A DNA stretch of 64,000 nucleotides, from contig JAJTYR010000016.1 in NCBI GenBank assembly GCA_021463505.1, positions 1-64,000 of the forward strand, in the 5' to 3' direction. This document shows positions 9,941-61,455 of this stretch, one piece after another. How positions within the stretch are numbered: position 1 is the stretch's first letter; every line of letters starts with the position of its first letter. This DNA comes from Burkholderiaceae bacterium (GTDB lineage: Bacteria > Pseudomonadota > Gammaproteobacteria > Burkholderiales > Burkholderiaceae_E). The position numbers and the translations under genes were made by a program. Under the pieces are notes generated by a model that worked only from the letters and a program-made list of their open reading frames with translations, did not search any database and had not been told where the DNA came from.

Positions 9941-12067
9941 TCAACCTCCCGACTGCGCGGCGGCTTCCTCGGCGGTGACGGCTTTCATCGACAGGCGCAG
10001 GCGGCCCTTGTCGTCGGCCTCGATGACCTTGACGCGCACCACCTGGCCTTCCTTCAGGTAGTCGGAGACCTGGTTGACGCGCTCGTTGGCAATCTGCGAG
10101 ACGTGCAGCAGGCCGTCGCGGCCCGGCATGACCTGGACGATCGCGCCGAAGTCGAGGATCTTCAGCACCGTGCCTTCGTAGACCCGGCCGATTTCGACTT
10201 CGGCGGTGAGGTCCTCGATGATCTTCTGCGCGCGCTTGGCGGCGGCACCGTCGACCGCGGCGATCGTGATCGAACCGTCGTCCTTGATGTCGATCTGCGT
10301 GCCGGTGGTTTCGGTGATCTGGCGGATCGTCGCGCCGCCCTTGCCGATCACGTCGCGGATGCGCTCGGGGTTGATCTTCATCGTGTACATGCGCGGCGCG
10401 AAGTCGGACAGTTCCTCGCGGGCGCCGCCGATGGCCTGCTGCATCAGCCCGAGGATGTGCATGCGTCCTTCGCGCGCCTGCGCGAGCGCGACCTGCATGA
10501 TCTCCTTCGTGATCCCCTGGATCTTGATGTCCATCTGCAGCGCCGTGATGCCGGCCGTGGTGCCGGCCACCTTGAAGTCCATGTCGCCGAGATGGTCCTC
10601 GTCGCCCAGGATGTCGGTGAGCACCGCGAAGCGCCCGCCTTCCTTGATCAGACCCATCGCGACGCCTGCCACGTGCGCCTTCACCGGAACGCCGGCGTCC
10701 ATCAGCGCAAGGCACCCGCCGCACACCGACGCCATCGACGACGAGCCGTTCGACTCGGTGATCTCCGAGACCACGCGCAGCGAATAGGCGAACTCCTCGG
10801 CGCCCGGCAGCAGCGGGCGGATCGCGCGTTTGGCGAGGTTGCCGTGGCCGACCTCGCGCCGCTTCGGCGAGCCGAAGCGACCGGTCTCGCCCGTGGCGAA
10901 CGGCGGCATGTTGTAGTTGAACATGAAGCGCTCGCGATACTCGCCGGTGATCGCGTCGATGATCTGCTCGTCGCGCGAGGTGCCGAGCGTGGCGACCACG
11001 ATCGCCTGCGTCTCGCCGCGGGTGAACAGTGCGGAGCCGTGCGCGCGCGGCATCACGCTGGTGCGGATGGCGATCGGGCGCACCGTGCGCGTGTCGCGAC
11101 CGTCGATGCGCGGCTCGCCCGAGAGGATCTGGCTGCGCACGATGCGGTACTGCAGGTCGAACAGCATGTTGCCGAGGTCGTTGGCGTCGGGCGCCGGATG
11201 GCCTTGCGCCGCCGCGTCCTCGACGATGCGCGCGATCGTCGTCTTCTCGATCTCGCCGATGCGGGTCACGCGCTGCTGCTTGTTGCGCAGCGCGTAGGCC
11301 GCGCGCATGTCCGCCTCGGCCAGCGCATTCACGCGGGCGATCAGGGCGTCGTTCTTCGGGGCGGACGACCAGTCCCAGGCGGGCTTGCCGGCCATCTCGA
11401 CCAGTTCGTCGATCGCCTTGATCGCGACCTGCATCTGCTCGTGGCCGTAGACCACCGCGCCGAGCATGACGTCTTCGGCCAGCTCGTGAGCCTCCGACTC
11501 GACCATCAGCACGGCCGCGTCGGTGCCGGCCACGACCAGGTCGAGCTTCGAGTCGTCCATCTGCGTGGCGCTCGGGTTCAGCACGTACTGGCCGTCGACG
11601 TAGCCGACGCGCGCAGCCCCGATCGGGCCGTCGAACGGGATGCCCGACAGCGCGAGCGCCGCCGAGGCGCCGATCATGGCCGGAATGTCGCTGTCGACTT
11701 CCGGGTTGCTCGACATCACCTGGACGATGACCTGGACCTCGTTGTAGAAGCCCTCGGGGAACAGCGGCCGGATCGGCCGGTCGATCAGCCGGCAGATCAG
11801 GATCTCGCGCTCGGTGGGGCGGCCTTCACGCTTGAAGAAGCCCCCGGGGATGCGGCCGGCGGCGTAGAACTTCTCGACGTAGTCGACGGTGAGCGGGAAG
11901 AAGTCCTGGCCCGGCTTGGCGCTGCGCGCCGCCACGACGCTGGCCAGCACCACGGTGTCGTCCATGTTCACGACGACCGAGCCCGACGCCTGGCGGGCGA
12001 TCTCACCGGTTTCGATCGTGACGGTGTTGCCGCCCCACTGGAACGTTTTCTTTGCGATTTCGAACAC
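9941..12067 (-). CDS. pnp: Polyribonucleotide nucleotidyltransferase (PNPase)
   Basis: 708 residues, the usual size for PNPase, the 3'-to-5' phosphorolytic exoribonuclease of the RNA degradosome. Two RNase PH-like domains are visible ([20 protein letters not shown] in the first, [17 protein letters not shown] in the second), followed by a KH domain ([16 protein letters not shown]) and a C-terminal S1 domain ([16 protein letters not shown]). The start is taken as GTG 12067 with AAAGGA six bases before it, giving the typical N-terminus [12 protein letters not shown]; an in-frame ATG at 12097 lies in the hairpin region and is less likely. It follows rpsO, the classic rpsO-pnp order. Confidence 0.97.
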
Positions 12068-12088
12068 TTCGATTCCTTTCAAACAAGA

Positions 12089-12113
12089 AACCCGCAAGGT
12101 TCGCTTGCGGGTT
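12089..12113 (-). terminator. rpsO-pnp intergenic hairpin (terminator or RNase III site)
   Basis: A perfect 10-bp stem, aacccgcaag with cttgcgggtt around a 5-base loop, is followed on the minus strand by a T-rich stretch (TTCTTGTTTG). It sits between rpsO and pnp, where E. coli has a partial terminator and a processing site. It is likely to uncouple rpsO and pnp expression. Confidence 0.75.
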
Positions 12114-12127
12114 CCGGGTCTGTTCTG

Positions 12128-12397
12128 TCAGCCGCGCAAACCGAGTCTCTCGATCAGCGCCTTGTAGCTCGAAGGGTTCGTGCCCTTCAGGTAATCGAGC
12201 AATTTACGCCGGCGGCTCACCATCTTGAGCAGGCCGCGGCGCGAGTGGTGGTCTTTCGCGTGCACCTTGAAGTGCTCGGTCAGCTCGACGATGCGGGCGG
12301 TGAGCAGCGCGACCTGGACCTCGGGCGAACCGGTGTCTTTGGCGGCACGCTGGTAGTCGGCGACGATCTTCGCCTTGTCGATGTTGGCGACGGCCAT
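12128..12397 (-). CDS. rpsO: 30S ribosomal protein S15
   Basis: 89 residues, exactly the usual S15 length, with the conserved [34 protein letters not shown] and [10 protein letters not shown] segments. S15 binds 16S rRNA early in assembly of the small subunit. ATG 12397 has AGGGG at the right distance. The gene leads the rpsO-pnp pair and has a TATAAT hexamer upstream. Confidence 0.98.
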
Positions 12398-12513
12398 GAG
12401 TTTCCCCTGTGAAGAGACTTCCACTTGCGGCATCGCCGGGTCGCGATGCCGTGCCTGTGCGCCGCCACAGGCGCTCGACCAACGAGCGAGCCGTGCGACC
12501 GCGAAACCGGCGA

Positions 12514-12519
12514 ATTATA
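12514..12519 (-). promoter_or_regulatory. -10 element for rpsO
   Basis: Read on the minus strand this is a perfect TATAAT, about 117 bases before the rpsO start and just before the 3' end of the solute-binding protein gene. No good TTGACA stands 16-18 bases upstream. The position and the need for strong expression of S15 make it a likely promoter element. Confidence 0.55.
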
Positions 12520-12532
12520 GCCGGAATCGGGA

Positions 12533-13855
12533 TCAGCCGTCGGGACGGCGCATCGCGCACGCCTGGGGCCGGGCCGACGCCTGCAGATCGACGAAGCGCT
12601 CGGTGCGAAAGCCCAGTCCGCTGCCTTCGAGATCGTATTTCGGTGCGCCCTCGCCGGCCTGCGGGCCGGCGCGCTCCATCACCGACACGTAGAGCGGTGC
12701 CAGTACCTGGTGGTCGGCGGCGCGCATCGCCGCGGCGTACGGCGGCGCGCGGTGCGTGCGCCCCTCGAGCTGACGCGCGACGGCCGCGGCCTCGGTGCTG
12801 CCGGCCGCCTCGATCGCTGCCGCGAGCATGTCGATCATCACGACGTGGCGCATGTTGAAGTAGTCGTCGCGCGGGTCGCGCAGCCGCTGGCGGAACGCCA
12901 GGTAGATGCGCTCGGCGCCGGGCACGCCGGCATTCGGGTGCCACTCCGCGACCGCGCGCACGCGCCCCACGCCGGCCTCGCCGATGGCCGCCGGCGCGCC
13001 CAGCCCGTTGCCGTAGAACGTGTAGAAATCGGCCACGAGGCCGACCTCGCGCGCGGAGCGCACCAGGAAGGTGAGGTCGTTGCCCCAGTTCCCGGTGACC
13101 ACCGTGTCGGCGCCGGCCGCCTTGATCTTGGCGGCATAGGGCACGAAGTCCTTGATCCGCCCGAGCGGGTGCAACTCGTCACCCACGATCTCGACGTCGG
13201 GGCGCCTGGCGAGGATCATCTGCCGCGCAAGCGCGGCTACCTGCTTGCCGAAGCTGTAGTCCTGGTTCAGCAGATAGGCGCGATGTACGCGCGGGTTCTG
13301 CGCCAGCGCGTCAGCGAGCGCGCTCATGCGCATGCCGGCGTGCGCATCGAACCGGAAGTGCCAGAAGCTGCAACGCTCGTTGGTGAGCGTCGGGTCGACC
13401 GCCGCGTAGTTCAGGAACAGCAGCCGGTTGCCGGGTTCACGCTCGTTGTGCGCGGACACCGCATCGATCAGCGCAGCCGCGACCGCCGAGCTGTTGCCCT
13501 GCAGGATGAACGGAACACGCTGATCGGCGGCCTTGCGCAGCATCGCGATCGCCTCTTCGACCTGGCCCTGGCTGTCCAGGCGCAACAGCGCCAGCGGACG
13601 CGCCGTGTCGCCGACACGCACGCCGCCGCGCGCGTTCGCGCGCTCGATCGCGAAGGCCAGGTTGCGCCAGACCGAGTCGCCGGCATTTGCGAACGGGCCG
13701 GAGAAGCCCTCGATGACGGCCAGCCGGATCGGTTCGGGCGAAACCGCCGCGCCTGCCGCCGCAGTCTGCGCGATGGCCGTCCCGGCACGCACGGCGCCGA
13801 GCAGCGCCGAGGCGCCGATGGCACCGGCCAGACGGCGGCGCCCGTGGCGCGACAT
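12533..13855 (-). CDS. Branched-chain-type ABC transporter solute-binding protein (orphan)
   Basis: 440 residues. The N-terminus (GRRRLAGAIGASALLG... to about residue 30) is an export signal, possibly Tat-type because of the arginine run. The mature part looks like the Leu/Ile/Val-binding (LivJ/HAAT) family of type I periplasmic-binding folds: IRLAVIEGFSGPFANAG, RVPFILQGNSSAV, AYLLNQDYSFGKQVA and DTVVTGNWGNDL. Its ATG overlaps the leuA stop codon by one base (TGATG), so translation is probably coupled to leucine synthesis. No permease or ATPase gene is nearby, so it may serve a transporter coded elsewhere or act as a sensor. Ligand unknown. Confidence 0.88.
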   Translation of the reverse strand: MSRHGRRRLAGAIGASALLGAVRAGTAIAQTAAAGAAVSPEPIRLAVIEGFSGPFANAGDSVWRNLAFAIERANARGGVRVGDTARPLALLRLDSQGQVEEAIAMLRKAADQRVPFILQGNSSAVAAALIDAVSAHNEREPGNRLLFLNYAAVDPTLTNERCSFWHFRFDAHAGMRMSALADALAQNPRVHRAYLLNQDYSFGKQVAALARQMILARRPDVEIVGDELHPLGRIKDFVPYAAKIKAAGADTVVTGNWGNDLTFLVRSAREVGLVADFYTFYGNGLGAPAAIGEAGVGRVRAVAEWHPNAGVPGAERIYLAFRQRLRDPRDDYFNMRHVVMIDMLAAAIEAAGSTEAAAVARQLEGRTHRAPPYAAAMRAADHQVLAPLYVSVMERAGPQAGEGAPKYDLEGSGLGFRTERFVDLQASARPQACAMRRPDG

Positions 13856-29284: not shown

Positions 29285-29986
29285 GTGATCTGGGACATCG
29301 CGCTGCGCAAGCTGCTCCGGCACGCCGACACGAGCTTCGAACTCGACGTGCGCTTCGCCAGCGACGCGCCGCGGCTGGCGCTCTTCGGCCCGTCGGGCGC
29401 CGGCAAGACGCTGACGCTGAAGACGATCGCCGGCATCGTGCGCCCCGACGCCGCACGCATCTGCGTGGCCGGCCGGGTGCTGCACGATACCGTCCACGGG
29501 CTGCGGCTGTCGCCGCAGCAGCGGCGCCTGGGCTACCTGTTCCAGGACTACGCGCTGTTCCCGCACCTGACCGTGCGCCAGAACATTGCGTTCGGTCGTC
29601 GCACCGGCTGGCTCAACCCCGGCCGTGCGAACACCGACGAAGCGGTCGAGCGCTGGATCGCCGTGTTTCACCTCGAAGGCGTGGCCGACCATCATCCGCA
29701 CCAGCTCTCGGGCGGGCAGCGCCAGCGCACTGCGCTGGCGCGGGCGCTGGTCAACGAGCCGTCCGCACTGCTGCTCGACGAGCCGTTCGCCGCACTGGAC
29801 ATGGGGCTGCGCCAGCGGCTGCGCAGCGAGCTCGCCGAGTTGCAGGCCCAGCTCGGCCTGCCGCTGCTGCTGATCACGCACGATCTCGACGACGTGCGCG
29901 CGCTGGGCGCCGAAGTCGTCCACCTGCAGCGCGGCCGCGTCGTCGAGGATTCGGCTGTGCCGGAAGCGTGCCATGTCCAGGCGTAG
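29285..29986 (+). CDS. modC: Molybdate ABC transporter ATPase, short form
   Basis: 233 residues starting with GTG. Walker A is GPSGAGKTLTLKTIAG, the Q-loop YLFQDYALFPHLTVRQNIAFG, the signature QLSGGQRQRTALARAL, Walker B LLLDEPFAALD and the switch LLITHDLDD. E. coli ModC is about 350 residues because of a C-terminal Mop/TOBE regulatory domain. That domain is absent here, while two Mop domains are present in ModE encoded next door. The last 14 bases overlap modE. Confidence 0.93.
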   Translation: MIWDIALRKLLRHADTSFELDVRFASDAPRLALFGPSGAGKTLTLKTIAGIVRPDAARICVAGRVLHDTVHGLRLSPQQRRLGYLFQDYALFPHLTVRQNIAFGRRTGWLNPGRANTDEAVERWIAVFHLEGVADHHPHQLSGGQRQRTALARALVNEPSALLLDEPFAALDMGLRQRLRSELAELQAQLGLPLLLITHDLDDVRALGAEVVHLQRGRVVEDSAVPEACHVQA

Positions 29987-30791
29987 CAGGACACCGCGGC
30001 TCGAAGCCAGGGGTTCGTTGTGGATCACCGCGAACGGTGAAAGCCTGGGCGGTCACGGCCGCATGGCGCTGCTTCGCGCGGTGGCCGAGCAGGGCTCGAT
30101 CACGCAGGCGGCCAGGGCCTTCGGAATCAGCTACAAGGCGGCATGGGATGCGATCGACGCGATGAACCGCGTCGCTGGCGAAGACCTGGTCGAGCGCAGC
30201 AGCGGCGGCCGCGGCGGCGGCTCGACAAGGCTCACCGAGCACGGCCGGCGCCTGCTGGAGCGCTATGCACAGGTCGACGCCGTGCACCAGCGCTTCGTGA
30301 AGCTGCTCACCGACGAGGCCTTCGACCTGTCGCACCCGTTCTCGGTGCTCGATGTCCTGAACCTGAAGACCACCGCCCGCAACCAGTTCACCGGGACGGT
30401 GACCGCGATGCGCTCGGGCGCCGTCAACGACGAGGTCGAACTCACGCTGCCCGGCGGCACGCGCCTGGTGGCGATCGTCGCACGCGAGAGCGTCGATGCG
30501 CTGGGACTGCGCATCCAGCAGCCTGCGGTCGCGCTGATCCAGGCCGCCAACGTGGTGCTGGCCACCGACATCGGGCAGGCGAAGTTGTCGACCCGCAACC
30601 AGTTGCACGGCACCGTGCGTTTGGTCAAACCGGGCGCGGTGAACGCCGAGGTGACGCTCGACATCGACAGCGGCGGGCAGATCGTGGCGATGGTCACTGA
30701 AGCGAGCGCCAGGGAGCTGGGACTGGCCCCCGGGGGGCGCACCACCGCGCTGGTCAAGGCTCCGGACGTGATTCTCGCGGTGGCAAGCTGA
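29973..30791 (+). CDS. modE: Molybdate-responsive regulator ModE
   Basis: 272 residues. Residues ~15-120 are the winged-helix domain (ALLRAVAEQGSITQAARAFG, SYKAAWDAIDAMN, GGSTRLTEHGRRLLERY). Two Mop/TOBE molybdate-binding domains follow: TARNQFTGTVTAMRSGAVNDE and STRNQLHGTVRLVKPGAVNAE, each ~70 residues. ModE with bound molybdate represses mod genes and adjusts molybdo-enzyme genes. It overlaps modC, so modABCE is one unit, and is likely self-controlled through the dyads upstream of modA. Confidence 0.95.
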   Translation: MSRRSRTPRLEARGSLWITANGESLGGHGRMALLRAVAEQGSITQAARAFGISYKAAWDAIDAMNRVAGEDLVERSSGGRGGGSTRLTEHGRRLLERYAQVDAVHQRFVKLLTDEAFDLSHPFSVLDVLNLKTTARNQFTGTVTAMRSGAVNDEVELTLPGGTRLVAIVARESVDALGLRIQQPAVALIQAANVVLATDIGQAKLSTRNQLHGTVRLVKPGAVNAEVTLDIDSGGQIVAMVTEASARELGLAPGGRTTALVKAPDVILAVAS

Positions 30792-31014
30792 GCGAAATCC
30801 AGAAAACCAGGGTGCTCCATTCCGCGTCGAGGGCGCGCGTCACGAAGACCGTGGCACCGGTCGTCCCCGAGTACTCCGGGATGAGCGGGCGGTCGACCAA
30901 ACCGTGGACGCGCAGCGCCATGTGGCAACCATGGAAGGCAGCACCGACCTGCGCCGCGTCGCGCATGAACTCGTAGATCGAGCGTTCGCGGTTGGGCGAC
31001 GGATTCCAGCGCAC
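30790..31014 (-). pseudogene. DsrE-like protein, C-terminal remnant
   Basis: The frame read from 31014 gives RSIYEFMRDAAQVGAAFHGC, then HMALRVHGLVDRPLIPEYSG, then TTGATVFVTRALDAEWSTLV. It resembles the C-terminal half of DsrE-family sulfur-carrier proteins (the cysteine in a GCxMA-like motif, LIPExxG, GAxxFV). The N-terminal half is missing and no start with a ribosome site is seen. It abuts the end of modE head-on and follows the GcvH-like remnant in another frame. Family assignment is by eye and uncertain. Confidence 0.45.
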
Positions 31015-31372
31015 CAGCCATCACCGCGTACAGCAAGGGCGCCGCGGCATCGACCAGGCGCGCAACATCGTTGTCCCGGTCGAGCGGCTCGCCGCGCGCC
31101 ATCCACCCGTCACCGCAGGGATCGCGGTTGATGCTCTCCGGCCGCTGCTCGACATCCTCGTTGGCGCACCCGGGGCGAAAGGCCACCGGCGCATGCACCG
31201 CGACCACGGTTTTCGCCAAGCCGATCACCTCGCCGGCCTGGTGCAAGCCGAAGCTGGTCGCGCCGATGACGACTTCACCGCCTTCGCGCCGCACCCACAC
31301 GTCGTATCGGGTGTCATGGAGCCGGTCGGACGGCATCTGCCCGCGCAAATTCTCGGTGGCCATGTTGTGCAT
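31012..31372 (-). pseudogene. GcvH-like lipoyl-domain protein, internally deleted
   Basis: The frame from 31372 reads RYDVWVRREGGEVVIGATSF then GLHQAGEVIGLAKTVVAVHA, and later NRDPCGDGWMARGEPLDRDN. This resembles a glycine-cleavage H-protein or lipoate-binding protein. In that family about 20 residues separate GEVI from the E-x-x-K lipoylation segment, and here they are gone, joining the two directly. The frame then runs without similarity into the DsrE-like piece. The fold is probably destroyed. Known GcvH-like/DsrE pairs occur in sulfur-transfer loci, but with such short pieces that link is only a suggestion. Confidence 0.5.
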
Positions 31373-31467
31373 GGCGGAAGAGAGTGGGAGTCGAACCCGC
31401 CAGGGACCGCTTGGCCGCCCCTCCCGGTTTTGAAGACCGGGCGCTCCACCGGGGTGCGATCTCTTCC
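31372..31467 (-). tRNA. selC: tRNA-Sec (UCA anticodon), possibly decaying
   Basis: 96 bases including an encoded CCA. The 8-bp acceptor stem (GGAAGAGA with TCTCTTCC), the discriminator G, the anticodon stem CCCGGT/ACCGGG with loop CTTCAAA (anticodon TCA, reading UGA), a long variable arm (AGGGGCGGCCAAGCGGTCCCT) and TTCGACT in the T-loop are the marks of selenocysteine tRNA. Compared with E. coli selC, the T-stem has one C-A mismatch and the D-stem one A-A mismatch plus an extra base. It stands five bases after the stop of a selB remnant, the usual selB-selC arrangement, but no intact selA or selB is in the window. Function is uncertain. Confidence 0.85.
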
Positions 31468-31472
31468 AGTGT

Positions 31473-31691
31473 TCAGATGATCCATTGCCTCTCCTCGGTG
31501 CCCGCCCGCAGGGGATGCTCGTCGCGCACCCGTGGCGGGTTGCACGGCACCGCCTCCGGCAGCGGCTTCAGTGCGCGCCACAGGTCTGCATCCGTGGCAG
31601 CGAGCGCGGCGCGATGCCCGGGCAGATGCAGCCAGCTCCCGCTGCGTGCCAGTTCACCCGAAGACAGCAACTCCGTGGTCAGGCTGTCGAA
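31473..31691 (-). pseudogene. selB: SelB elongation factor, C-terminal remnant
   Basis: Only ~72 codons remain: FDSLTTELLSSGELARSGSW, then LHLPGHRAALAATDADLWRA, then FxPPRVRD-like NPPRVRDEHPL and a stop. These match the winged-helix repeats at the C-terminal end of SelB, the special elongation factor that brings Sec-tRNA to UGA. The GTPase domains (about 400 residues) are missing. At its 5' side the sequence passes within a few bases into formate dehydrogenase sequence in another frame, which marks a deletion joint. The tRNA-Sec gene follows five bases later. Confidence 0.7.
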
Positions 31692-32190
31692 CCATCCCGC
31701 AGATGCGGAGGAAAGCCTCTTTCGGCGTGCCCGTCACCCTGGTCACCATCTCGGGCGTATAGCGCGAGTAGTGCTTCTTCATCCGCTGGAAGACGCAATC
31801 CGGATCCTGCAGCGTCGGATCGACCCTGGCAAAGCCGTGCTCGTCCTTCTGATACTGCCAGGTCGATCTGTCGTACGCGCGCTTCCCGGCGTCGTAGCCG
31901 GAGAAGAAACCGCTGTCGAACCCGAAGCCCGGGTCGACGAGGAACGCCGCGCCGGTGTAGTTCCTGACGTGGTCGTGGTGGATCGTGTCGTTCGTCAGCA
32001 GGTACTGGATGACACCGCCGGGGAGCGCGATGTCGCCGCCCGGACGAATCGGCGCGTGGAAATCGGCCACCGAGGCCGAGTGATTGAAGCGCGGATCGAC
32101 GACGATCCGCTTCGCCTTGCGGTGCTTCCTGGCTTCGATCACCCGCTTGAAACCGCAGGGATGCGCCTCGGCGGCATTGCCGCCGGATAT
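31692..32190 (-). pseudogene. Formate dehydrogenase-N/O alpha subunit, internal remnant
   Basis: About 166 codons are clearly homologous to FdnG/FdoG, the molybdopterin subunit of the respiratory formate dehydrogenase: SGGNAAEAHPCGFKRVIEAR, RIVVDPRFNHSASVADFHAP, GGVIQYLLTNDTIHHDHVRN, FSGYDAGKRAYDRSTWQYQK and HYSRYTPEMVTRVTGTPKEA. Both ends are missing. Upstream, where the Sec/Cys active site should be coded, only weak traces remain up to about 32280; downstream it is joined to the selB piece. Families of this type usually use selenocysteine, which fits the neighbouring selB and selC. Not functional. Confidence 0.85.
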
Positions 32191-32346
32191 CGGGACGCCT
32201 TCCTTTCGATGTAGTTGACGACGCGGTACCGATCGACCCGGGAACTGCCGCGGTACAGCAAAGGCATGTGCCGGGCGCAAGCAATGCGCCGGCGCGAAAA
32301 GCAGCTCGCCCGGGCGGCCGGGGATCTTCGGCCGCCGGGAGCACGA

Positions 32347-33435
32347 TCAGGTGTTCTGCACCACGATCGACGGGATCTTCAGGCTCATGTCGCGCGCCTT
32401 CTCGGCGATCTTGACCGCGACGCGACGCGCGATCTGCCGATAGATCGCAGCCGCCTGGCCATCGGGGTCGGCCACGACCGTGGGCTTGCCCGAGTCGGCC
32501 TGCTCGCGGATGCGGATGTCGAGCGGCAGTCCGCCGAGGTACTCGACGTCGTACTCCTTCGACATCCGTTCGCCGCCGCCCTGCCCGAAGATGTGCTCGG
32601 CGTGTCCGCAGTTCGAGCAGACGTGGATCGCCATGTTCTCGACGACGCCGAGAATCGGCACGCCGACCTTCTCGAACATCTTCAGGCCCTTGCGCGCGTC
32701 GATCAGCGCGATGTCCTGCGGCGTGGTGACGATCACCGCGCCGGTCACCGGGATCTTCTGCGCGAGCGTGAGGTGGATATCACCGGTGCCCGGGGGCATG
32801 TCGATCACCAGGTAGTCGAGGTCGCGCCAGTTGGTGTCGCGCAGCAGTTGTTCGAGCGCCTGCGTGACCATCGGGCCACGCCAGACCATCGGCGTGTCCA
32901 GGTCGATCATGAAGCCGATCGAACTGGCCTGGATGCCGTGCCCCTCCATCGGCTCGAGCGATTTGCCGTCGCGCGACTCGGGGCGCCCGGTGATGCCGAG
33001 CATCGTCGGCTGCGACGGGCCGTAGATGTCGGCGTCGAGCATGCCGACGCTCGCGCCTTCGGCGGCCAGCGCGAGCGCCAGATTCACCGCGGTGGTGCTC
33101 TTGCCGACCCCACCCTTTCCCGAGGCGACTGCGATGATGTTCTTCACGCCGGGCAGCGTCTTGACGCCGCGCTGCACCGAGTGCGAGACGATCTTCTGGA
33201 AGACGTTGGCCGACACGCTGGTGACACCCGGCAGCGCGCGCAGTGCCGCGACCACCTGCCGGCGGATCGGCTCGATCTGGCTGCGCGCCGGATAACCGAG
33301 CTCGACGTCGACCGCCACCTCGCCGCCTTCGACCCGCACGTTGCGAGCCTCGCGGCTCGCGATCAGGTCTTTCCGGGTATTCGGATCGACGATGGCCTTC
33401 AGGGCTTCGTTCACCTGCTCGACAGTCACGCTCAT
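32347..33435 (-). CDS. apbC: Iron-sulfur carrier ATPase ApbC/Mrp
   Basis: 362 residues. An N-terminal MIP18/DUF59-type domain ([20 protein letters not shown]) precedes the P-loop ATPase part with the deviant Walker [52 protein letters not shown] and the CxxC motif HVCSNCGH that carries the [4Fe-4S] cluster. It delivers iron-sulfur clusters to apo-proteins. ATG 33435 gives the family's typical N-terminus; no strong ribosome site. It is divergent from metG with 138 bases between, the usual arrangement in betaproteobacteria. Confidence 0.95.
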
Positions 33436-33573
33436 GGGTGCACTCTGGATGTGGGGAATTCGGGAAACGGGAAGTCTAATCGAAGGCGCCAAGGGTTCGC
33501 CGGCATACCCCGGACGGCGTCAGGCCGCCTGTTAGACTGGCATGTTTTCGCGGACCCGCTCCTGCGCCACGCC

Positions 33574-59581: not shown

Positions 59582-61455
<1,874 letters not shown>

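Follow-up and report, generated by a model that had tools for sequence, protein, structure and literature searches.

The passages of Zhang et al. 2006 cited here give selABC beside fdhA as the arrangement of the Sec-decoding beta-proteobacteria then known and describe the horizontal transfer of this arrangement (PMC1794560). They also report that selenoproteins have been lost without loss of Sec decoding, and that FdhA or SelD is found in every selenoproteome (PMC1794560). Two tRNA-Sec genes in one bacterium are likewise on record, as the cited sections of the Secmarker paper count eight bacterial genomes with two such genes and discuss tRNA-Sec pseudogenes (PMC5330540), and a Sec peroxiredoxin is listed as verified in the cited part of a 2026 review (PMC13188914). 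Among the titles and abstracts listed from one open literature library, none described an fdh-selB-selC cluster in ruins alongside another sel set.

Here, a site in the genome of a Burkholderiaceae bacterium (GCA_021463505.1, referred to as G000) is compared with these systems. The window, i.e. the whole stretch of DNA analysed, comprises 64,000 nucleotides of contig JAJTYR010000016.1. With high confidence, the site is interpreted as a dead gene cluster in a genome where selenium decoding persists through a separate selA-selB-selC set on contig C40 together with selD.

Results

A wrecked cluster between mrp and modE

The wreck of an fdhABGE-selA-selB-selC-gcvH-dsrE cluster lies at 30801-32184 on the minus strand of the window, and its presence is far beyond chance. 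In minus-strand order it consists of an fdhA fragment, a selB fragment, a tRNA-Sec gene and the remnants of a gcvH-like and a dsrE-like gene, the latter ending at 30801. It is flanked by two genes which, from their sequences, we take to be an mrp/apbC-type ATPase gene and a modE-like gene:

32347 to 33492, minus strand: mrp/apbC-type ATPase gene, left anchor
32185 to 32287, minus strand: 103 bp between the fdhA fragment and the end of sister homology downstream of mrp
31693 to 32184, minus strand: internal fdhA fragment (formate dehydrogenase-N type alpha subunit), both ends cut (BLASTN to L116; TIGR01553)
31476 to 31691, minus strand: selB fragment, in which part of the late gene is joined to the selB 3' end with its stop, 270 bp gone between (L116 comparison)
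31372 to 31467, minus strand: complete tRNA-Sec (selC), anticodon TCA, CCA encoded (ARAGORN; RF01852)
31041 to 31372, minus strand: gcvH-like remnant lacking 61 bp internally (PF01597; L116 blocks)
30991 to 31040, minus strand: 50 bp in place of the 234 bp between gcvH and dsrE in L116 (BLASTN blocks)
30801 to 30990, minus strand: 3' remnant of a dsrE-like gene (BLASTN to L116; PF13686)
29973 to 30791, plus strand: modE-like gene, right anchor

Sequence searches gave no convincing match for the 103 bp at 32185-32287.

The intact reference locus is L116. It comes from the complete genome AP021857.1 of Candidatus Desulfobacillus denitrificans, which matched most closely when named genomes were scanned (among the best 80 of 571 loci). 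Its order by tblastn is fdhA-fdhG-fdhE-selA-selB-gcvH-dsrE, with selC between selB and gcvH; fdhB was among the queries but is absent from the printed order. BLASTN of the relic against L116 leaves five collinear surviving blocks, all on one strand and 74-83% identical at the DNA level: fdhA (window 32184-31693, L116 9001-9492, 81% over 492 bp), selB (31691-31521, L116 16753-16923, 81% over 171 bp, E 5e-38), the end of selB with selC and the start of gcvH (31533-31218, L116 17181-17492, 83%), gcvH (31216-31041, L116 17554-17729, 74%) and dsrE (30990-30801, L116 17964-18153, 77% over 190 bp). Measured against L116, the gaps between blocks are deletions of 7260, 270, 61 and 234 bp, the third with one base inserted and the fourth with 50 bp in its place, and the relic spans 1.4 kb vs 9.15 kb in the intact cluster between the same end points.

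A first-pass annotation of the window had recognised the deletion-shortened remains of a locus for a selenocysteine formate dehydrogenase beside a tRNA-Sec gene, which the five blocks and the RF01852 match bear out. The single removal event that it proposed is adequate for the fdhA/selB junction alone, which fits one 7.26-kb deletion, but the whole relic needs at least four internal deletions and a 5' truncation. It had also bounded the fdhA/selB relic at 31372-32190, whereas the remains continue as gcvH and dsrE remnants to 30801 and the fdhA piece is internal, cut at both ends.

The fdhA, selB and dsrE fragments score below the curated Pfam cut-offs (PF13686 on the dsrE remnant, 18.7 bits against 25), so their names rest on comparison with intact clusters; of the four protein fragments only gcvH passes, with 36.9 bits for PF01597 (GCV_H) on 31004-31372 (cut-off 22.2). 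Towards its right end the window has two further SelB-like matches, at 60932-61441 and 63675-64334, both far under the cut-off. The selB fragment corresponds only to late residues of L116 SelB (474-530 and 617-633), 49/57 residues being identical (86%), and a genome search with the SelB profile TIGR00475 does not list it; it is not a whole SelB with its GTPase part. Described earlier as SelB C-terminal sequence, it does keep its own stop, 5 bases before selC, but lacks 270 bp (90 codons) internally. In L116 this 270-bp stretch sits between two copies of the 12-bp CGCGTGCGCGAC. Loss of sequence between direct repeats is an established deletion process, and the 270-bp loss fits such a deletion between the 12-bp copies.

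The mrp-modE site in the genus

The mrp-type and modE-type genes adjoin in other genomes of the genus, and the relic lies between them. In the sister-genome comparison suggested at first pass, the window holds 1493 bp between matching flanks (30795-32287), while G014 and G006 hold only ~208 and ~151 bp. G005 and G009 have 669 and 694 bp in this interval, and G015 has 4.3 kb. At the G005 site (L109:2985-3665) there is an imperfect palindrome, bounded by GGGCGTGTTCACACTACGATCGTCCCCGCG and the reverse complement of this sequence, that by eye resembles a small mobile element.

Sel genes or pieces occur downstream of mrp in four of the 14 mrp loci examined (G000, G009, G015 and G016) and in none of G001-G006 and G011-G014, the cluster of G004 lying elsewhere. 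These 14 loci come from the 18 genomes of the genus search, with G007, G008, G010 and G017 left out, and at the poorer loci the downstream stretch covered 2.4-5 kb. The G009 site has an intact tRNA-Sec and dsrE. In G015 (L111:4220-8560) there are two frames identified by eye, a molybdopterin oxidoreductase and an FdhD-like one, and a selB fragment matching SelB positions 585-659 at 68%, and the genus search found no tRNA-Sec in this genome. In G016, selA and selB stand directly downstream of mrp and reach the contig end.

The Sec trait is patchy in the genus: a tRNA-Sec above the Rfam cut-off is present in 7/18 genomes (that of G013 doubtful) and selA in 6/18, with one of the two G009 copies on a suspect contig. 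The G013 match (49.9 bits, cut-off 47) is doubted because ARAGORN reports no tRNA-Sec in L113 and G013 has no selA match; a third tRNA-Sec match in G000 itself (C55:61905-61993, 48.8 bits, above the cut-off) is doubted likewise. The suspect contig, C12 of G009 (L096, 1-5526), is probably foreign to that assembly since it matches Candidatus Desulfobacillus denitrificans at 100% over bases 1-1264 and mostly at 92% over the remainder, and on the strength of that identity it was rejected as a genus member keeping the same cluster. Of the G009 contigs C24 and C25 (L097, L098), one carries fdhABGE-gcvH-selA-selB with no tRNA-Sec found alongside. The single tRNA-Sec reported for G009 sits with dsrE between mrp and modE, and the cluster of this genome looks split in two.

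Signs of decay

The fdhA fragment matches positions 225-392 of the 1009 of TIGR01553 (227.3 bits, E 2.7e-67), under the cut-off of 814.2, and is thus a fragment and no working member. Alignment and tree show that constraint on the fragment is relaxed. The fragment departs at 6/50 near-invariant columns, defined as conserved in at least 97% (W14R, L26R, R35H, Y43H, F54L and Y72H), which is the highest count among 87 rows; the next row has 4 and 57 rows have zero. In the tree of the same 87 rows its end branch is 0.62 vs a median of 0.089, two other rows having longer ones (0.71 and 0.66), and it groups with L116 and L117 at a support of 89/93, below the star threshold. The dN/dS ratio was set aside as the chief sign of decay: it is weak evidence because pairs of intact genes cover 0.11-0.65, and the fragment gives 0.33 to L116, with 0.19 for L116 to L117. 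For polarised nonsynonymous changes, the G009 row equals the window with 16 each. The fdhA, selB and gcvH fragments contain no stop codons, which counts against reading the cluster as dead. Relatives gave matches in 70/150 cases; none carries the fdhA/selB junction, which lies at about base 509 of the query, and the furthest match ends at base 527.

The tRNA-Sec gene of the relic

The tRNA-Sec matches RF01852 over positions 1-91 of 91 (68.8 bits, gathering score 47, E 5.8e-12) and ARAGORN agrees, with anticodon tca. Its position five bases after the selB stop was given correctly at first pass, but the gene is complete including CCA rather than nearly complete. Its score is within the range of copies from whole clusters, tRNA-Sec elsewhere scoring 73.6 (L116) and 64.4 (L118) in clusters of the same type, 75.6 (G021) and 77.1 bits (C40). 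One derived change breaks a T-stem pair (C.A mismatch), which was rejected as proof of a dead tRNA because the selC of G021, in a full cluster, shares the mismatch. A G-to-A change in the D-stem, where pairing was assigned by eye, was also dismissed as damage: L116 and L118 already have an A.G mismatch there, and no standard pair is broken. Nothing seen in its sequence marks the gene as dead; it is intact, and may or may not remain in use.

As an addition to the main reading, selection could have kept this gene to supply the C40 machinery with another tRNA-Sec. Its completeness, its score and its divergence from L116 speak for this, as there are 5 differences over 96 bases by hand count, set against flanking blocks only 74-83% identical. 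However, this conservation may predate the decay, the T-stem pair is broken by a derived change (albeit one also seen in the G021 selC) and C40 has a copy of its own with a higher score; selection of this kind is considered unlikely.

A second sel set and PrxU

The G000 assembly is a draft of 120 contigs, 97.74% complete and with an estimated contamination of 0.34%. The Sec-decoding genes selA, selB, selC and selD are all present and all complete: selA at C40:10604-11950 (562.6 bits, cut-off 267.9), selB at C40:12012-13883 (455.6 bits, cut-off 242.25), a second selC at C40:13942-14033 (77.1 bits) and selD at C13:20056-20985 (429.1 bits, cut-off 125), the three protein-coding genes being without internal stops. 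From these intact genes we infer that the C40 set and selD decode Sec. The window SelB piece and C40 SelB share 33% identity over 55 residues and, judged by this comparison, are of different types.

At C40:10604-14863 (L011:6605-10864), selA-selB-selC is followed by a PrxU gene. The frame after selC contains just one in-frame TGA; this is codon 48, the U of the motif FTFVU. With U entered as C, the frame scores 378 bits for NF040737 (equivalog cut-off 270). A PrxU search of 74 family genomes gave matches in 25 at E up to 1e-40; position 48 is TGA in G000 and Cys in the other 24, which are AhpC-like, so PrxU itself was found in no other of the 74. Notes of '1 TGA' on other matches were rejected as signs of further selenoproteins since position 48 is Cys in 24/24, and a stop occurs only once in their aligned stretches, at position 193. 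A hairpin is predicted after the PrxU TGA, with the loop GGUC at +21 to +24, but its energy is no better than that of shuffles (z 0.98 and -0.16). This result, the Cys in the other 24 matches and the draft state of the genome weigh against the interpretation preferred here.

Both flanks of the C40 sel genes match the genus. Bases 1-403 and 12598-13028 of L011 are 88% and 91% identical to G014:C2, where they are ~750 bp apart, and G006:C1 has matches of 81-94% to bases 1-403 and to several parts of 10883-13037, so the stretches on either side of the sel genes lie in one contig in each genome. This bears on the alternative that C40 is a contaminant and that the organism's own Sec system is gone, to which the draft state of the assembly, the probably foreign contig C12 in G009 and the absence of PrxU from the rest of the family genomes all lend something. 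Given that the flanks match the genus and that estimated contamination is so low, contamination is very improbable. Between the flanks, L011 404-10882 contains selABC, prxU and what by eye are cytochrome genes; at E up to 1e-60 neither G006 nor G014 has a listed match to it, hence the C40 selABC-prxU stretch looks like an accessory island.

Formate dehydrogenase and other Sec candidates

A TIGR01553 search of G000 returned 17 matching stretches without internal stops, among which the window fragment is the best single stretch and no protein is above the cut-off. A 981-aa protein on contig C88 (L198:3163-6108) has the motif ARICHSTT, with Cys, by eye, at the expected Sec position. The whole protein scores 355.5 bits for TIGR01553 (cut-off 814.2) and 466.5 for TIGR01591 (cut-off 666.25) and may be a candidate cysteine-type formate dehydrogenase. 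Its gene neighbours include Fe-S and cytochrome b-like frames. The SECIS_3 search, which is tuned to one SECIS family, found no match in G000, PrxU included, while the E. coli control matches. The G000 SelD has no in-frame stop, and the GCGCK motif, which we take to be that of SelD, reads as Cys.

With no G000 protein above the TIGR01553 cut-off and no match in the SECIS_3 search, what was lost is the selenium-type formate dehydrogenase cluster, not selenium use. A PrxU-linked Sec system with neither Sec FdhA nor Sec SelD detected is mildly unusual.

Discussion

The first-pass annotation had seen in this site a loss of selenium use caught midway, with the tRNA-Sec as a left-over. The wrecked state of fdhA, selB, gcvH and dsrE and the lack of any other protein above the TIGR01553 cut-off accord with an organism losing selenium use entirely, but this is rejected as highly implausible because the same genome has selA, selB and selD, all complete, another selC, and a PrxU gene with an in-frame TGA. 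The genome search turned up a complete second selAB set, which the annotation itself had said would, with working selenoproteins, refute its view and mean that only a local copy decayed; from the intact genes we infer that this set works. An assembly chimera at the fdhA/selB junction, conceivable in a draft genome, is scarcely credible beside five collinear one-strand blocks in a single contig between two genus-specific anchors, and would leave the small internal deletions and near-invariant-site changes unexplained.

On the preferred reading, that of a dead cluster in a genome that still decodes selenium, an ancestor carried fdhABGE-selA-selB-selC-gcvH-dsrE of the Candidatus Desulfobacillus type between mrp and modE. 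As the alignment shows, the cluster lost its 5' part and was shortened internally by four or more deletions, including the 270-bp one flanked by 12-bp direct repeats. Selenium decoding would be maintained by the different-type selA-selB-selC set beside PrxU on C40, with selD on C13, and formate oxidation, if present, would presumably depend on a cysteine-type enzyme such as the C88 formate dehydrogenase-like protein.

Sec formate dehydrogenase is held to be a main reason for retaining Sec decoding. It is possible, and offered tentatively as less probable than not, that this lineage swapped the purpose of its Sec machinery: the Sec formate dehydrogenase died and a separately acquired, PrxU-linked selABC island keeps the trait without Sec FdhA or Sec SelD, perhaps using the orphan tRNA-Sec.

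The site is a well-preserved relic in which a process already known, selenoprotein loss, is clearly resolved. Such loss is usually inferred from absence, but in G000 the wreck is still present, and the combination of an intact reference cluster, empty sister sites and a wreck in place makes the deletion steps readable. Furthermore, decayed fdhA and selB beside a tRNA-Sec need not mean that selenium has been abandoned, as a second Sec system can substitute. If PrxU is the sole remaining selenoprotein, G000 would be a counter-example to the FdhA-or-SelD statement in the cited passages of Zhang et al. 2006 (PMC1794560).

The relic has the same genes, order and strand as the Candidatus Desulfobacillus denitrificans cluster, which differs in being whole and in having a SECIS_3 element in fdhA, whereas the relic is in fragments except for its tRNA gene. 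As in the losses reported in the cited passages of Zhang et al. 2006, a selenoprotein gene is gone and the Sec machinery is kept, but those cases were Sec-to-Cys changes or absences inferred across genomes, while G000 still has the wreck where it fell apart and retains another type of sel set (PMC1794560). G000 likewise resembles the genomes in the cited sections of the Secmarker paper in having two tRNA-Sec genes in one bacterium, but differs in that one of its two genes is part of the wrecked sel cluster and the other of a separate, intact one (PMC5330540).
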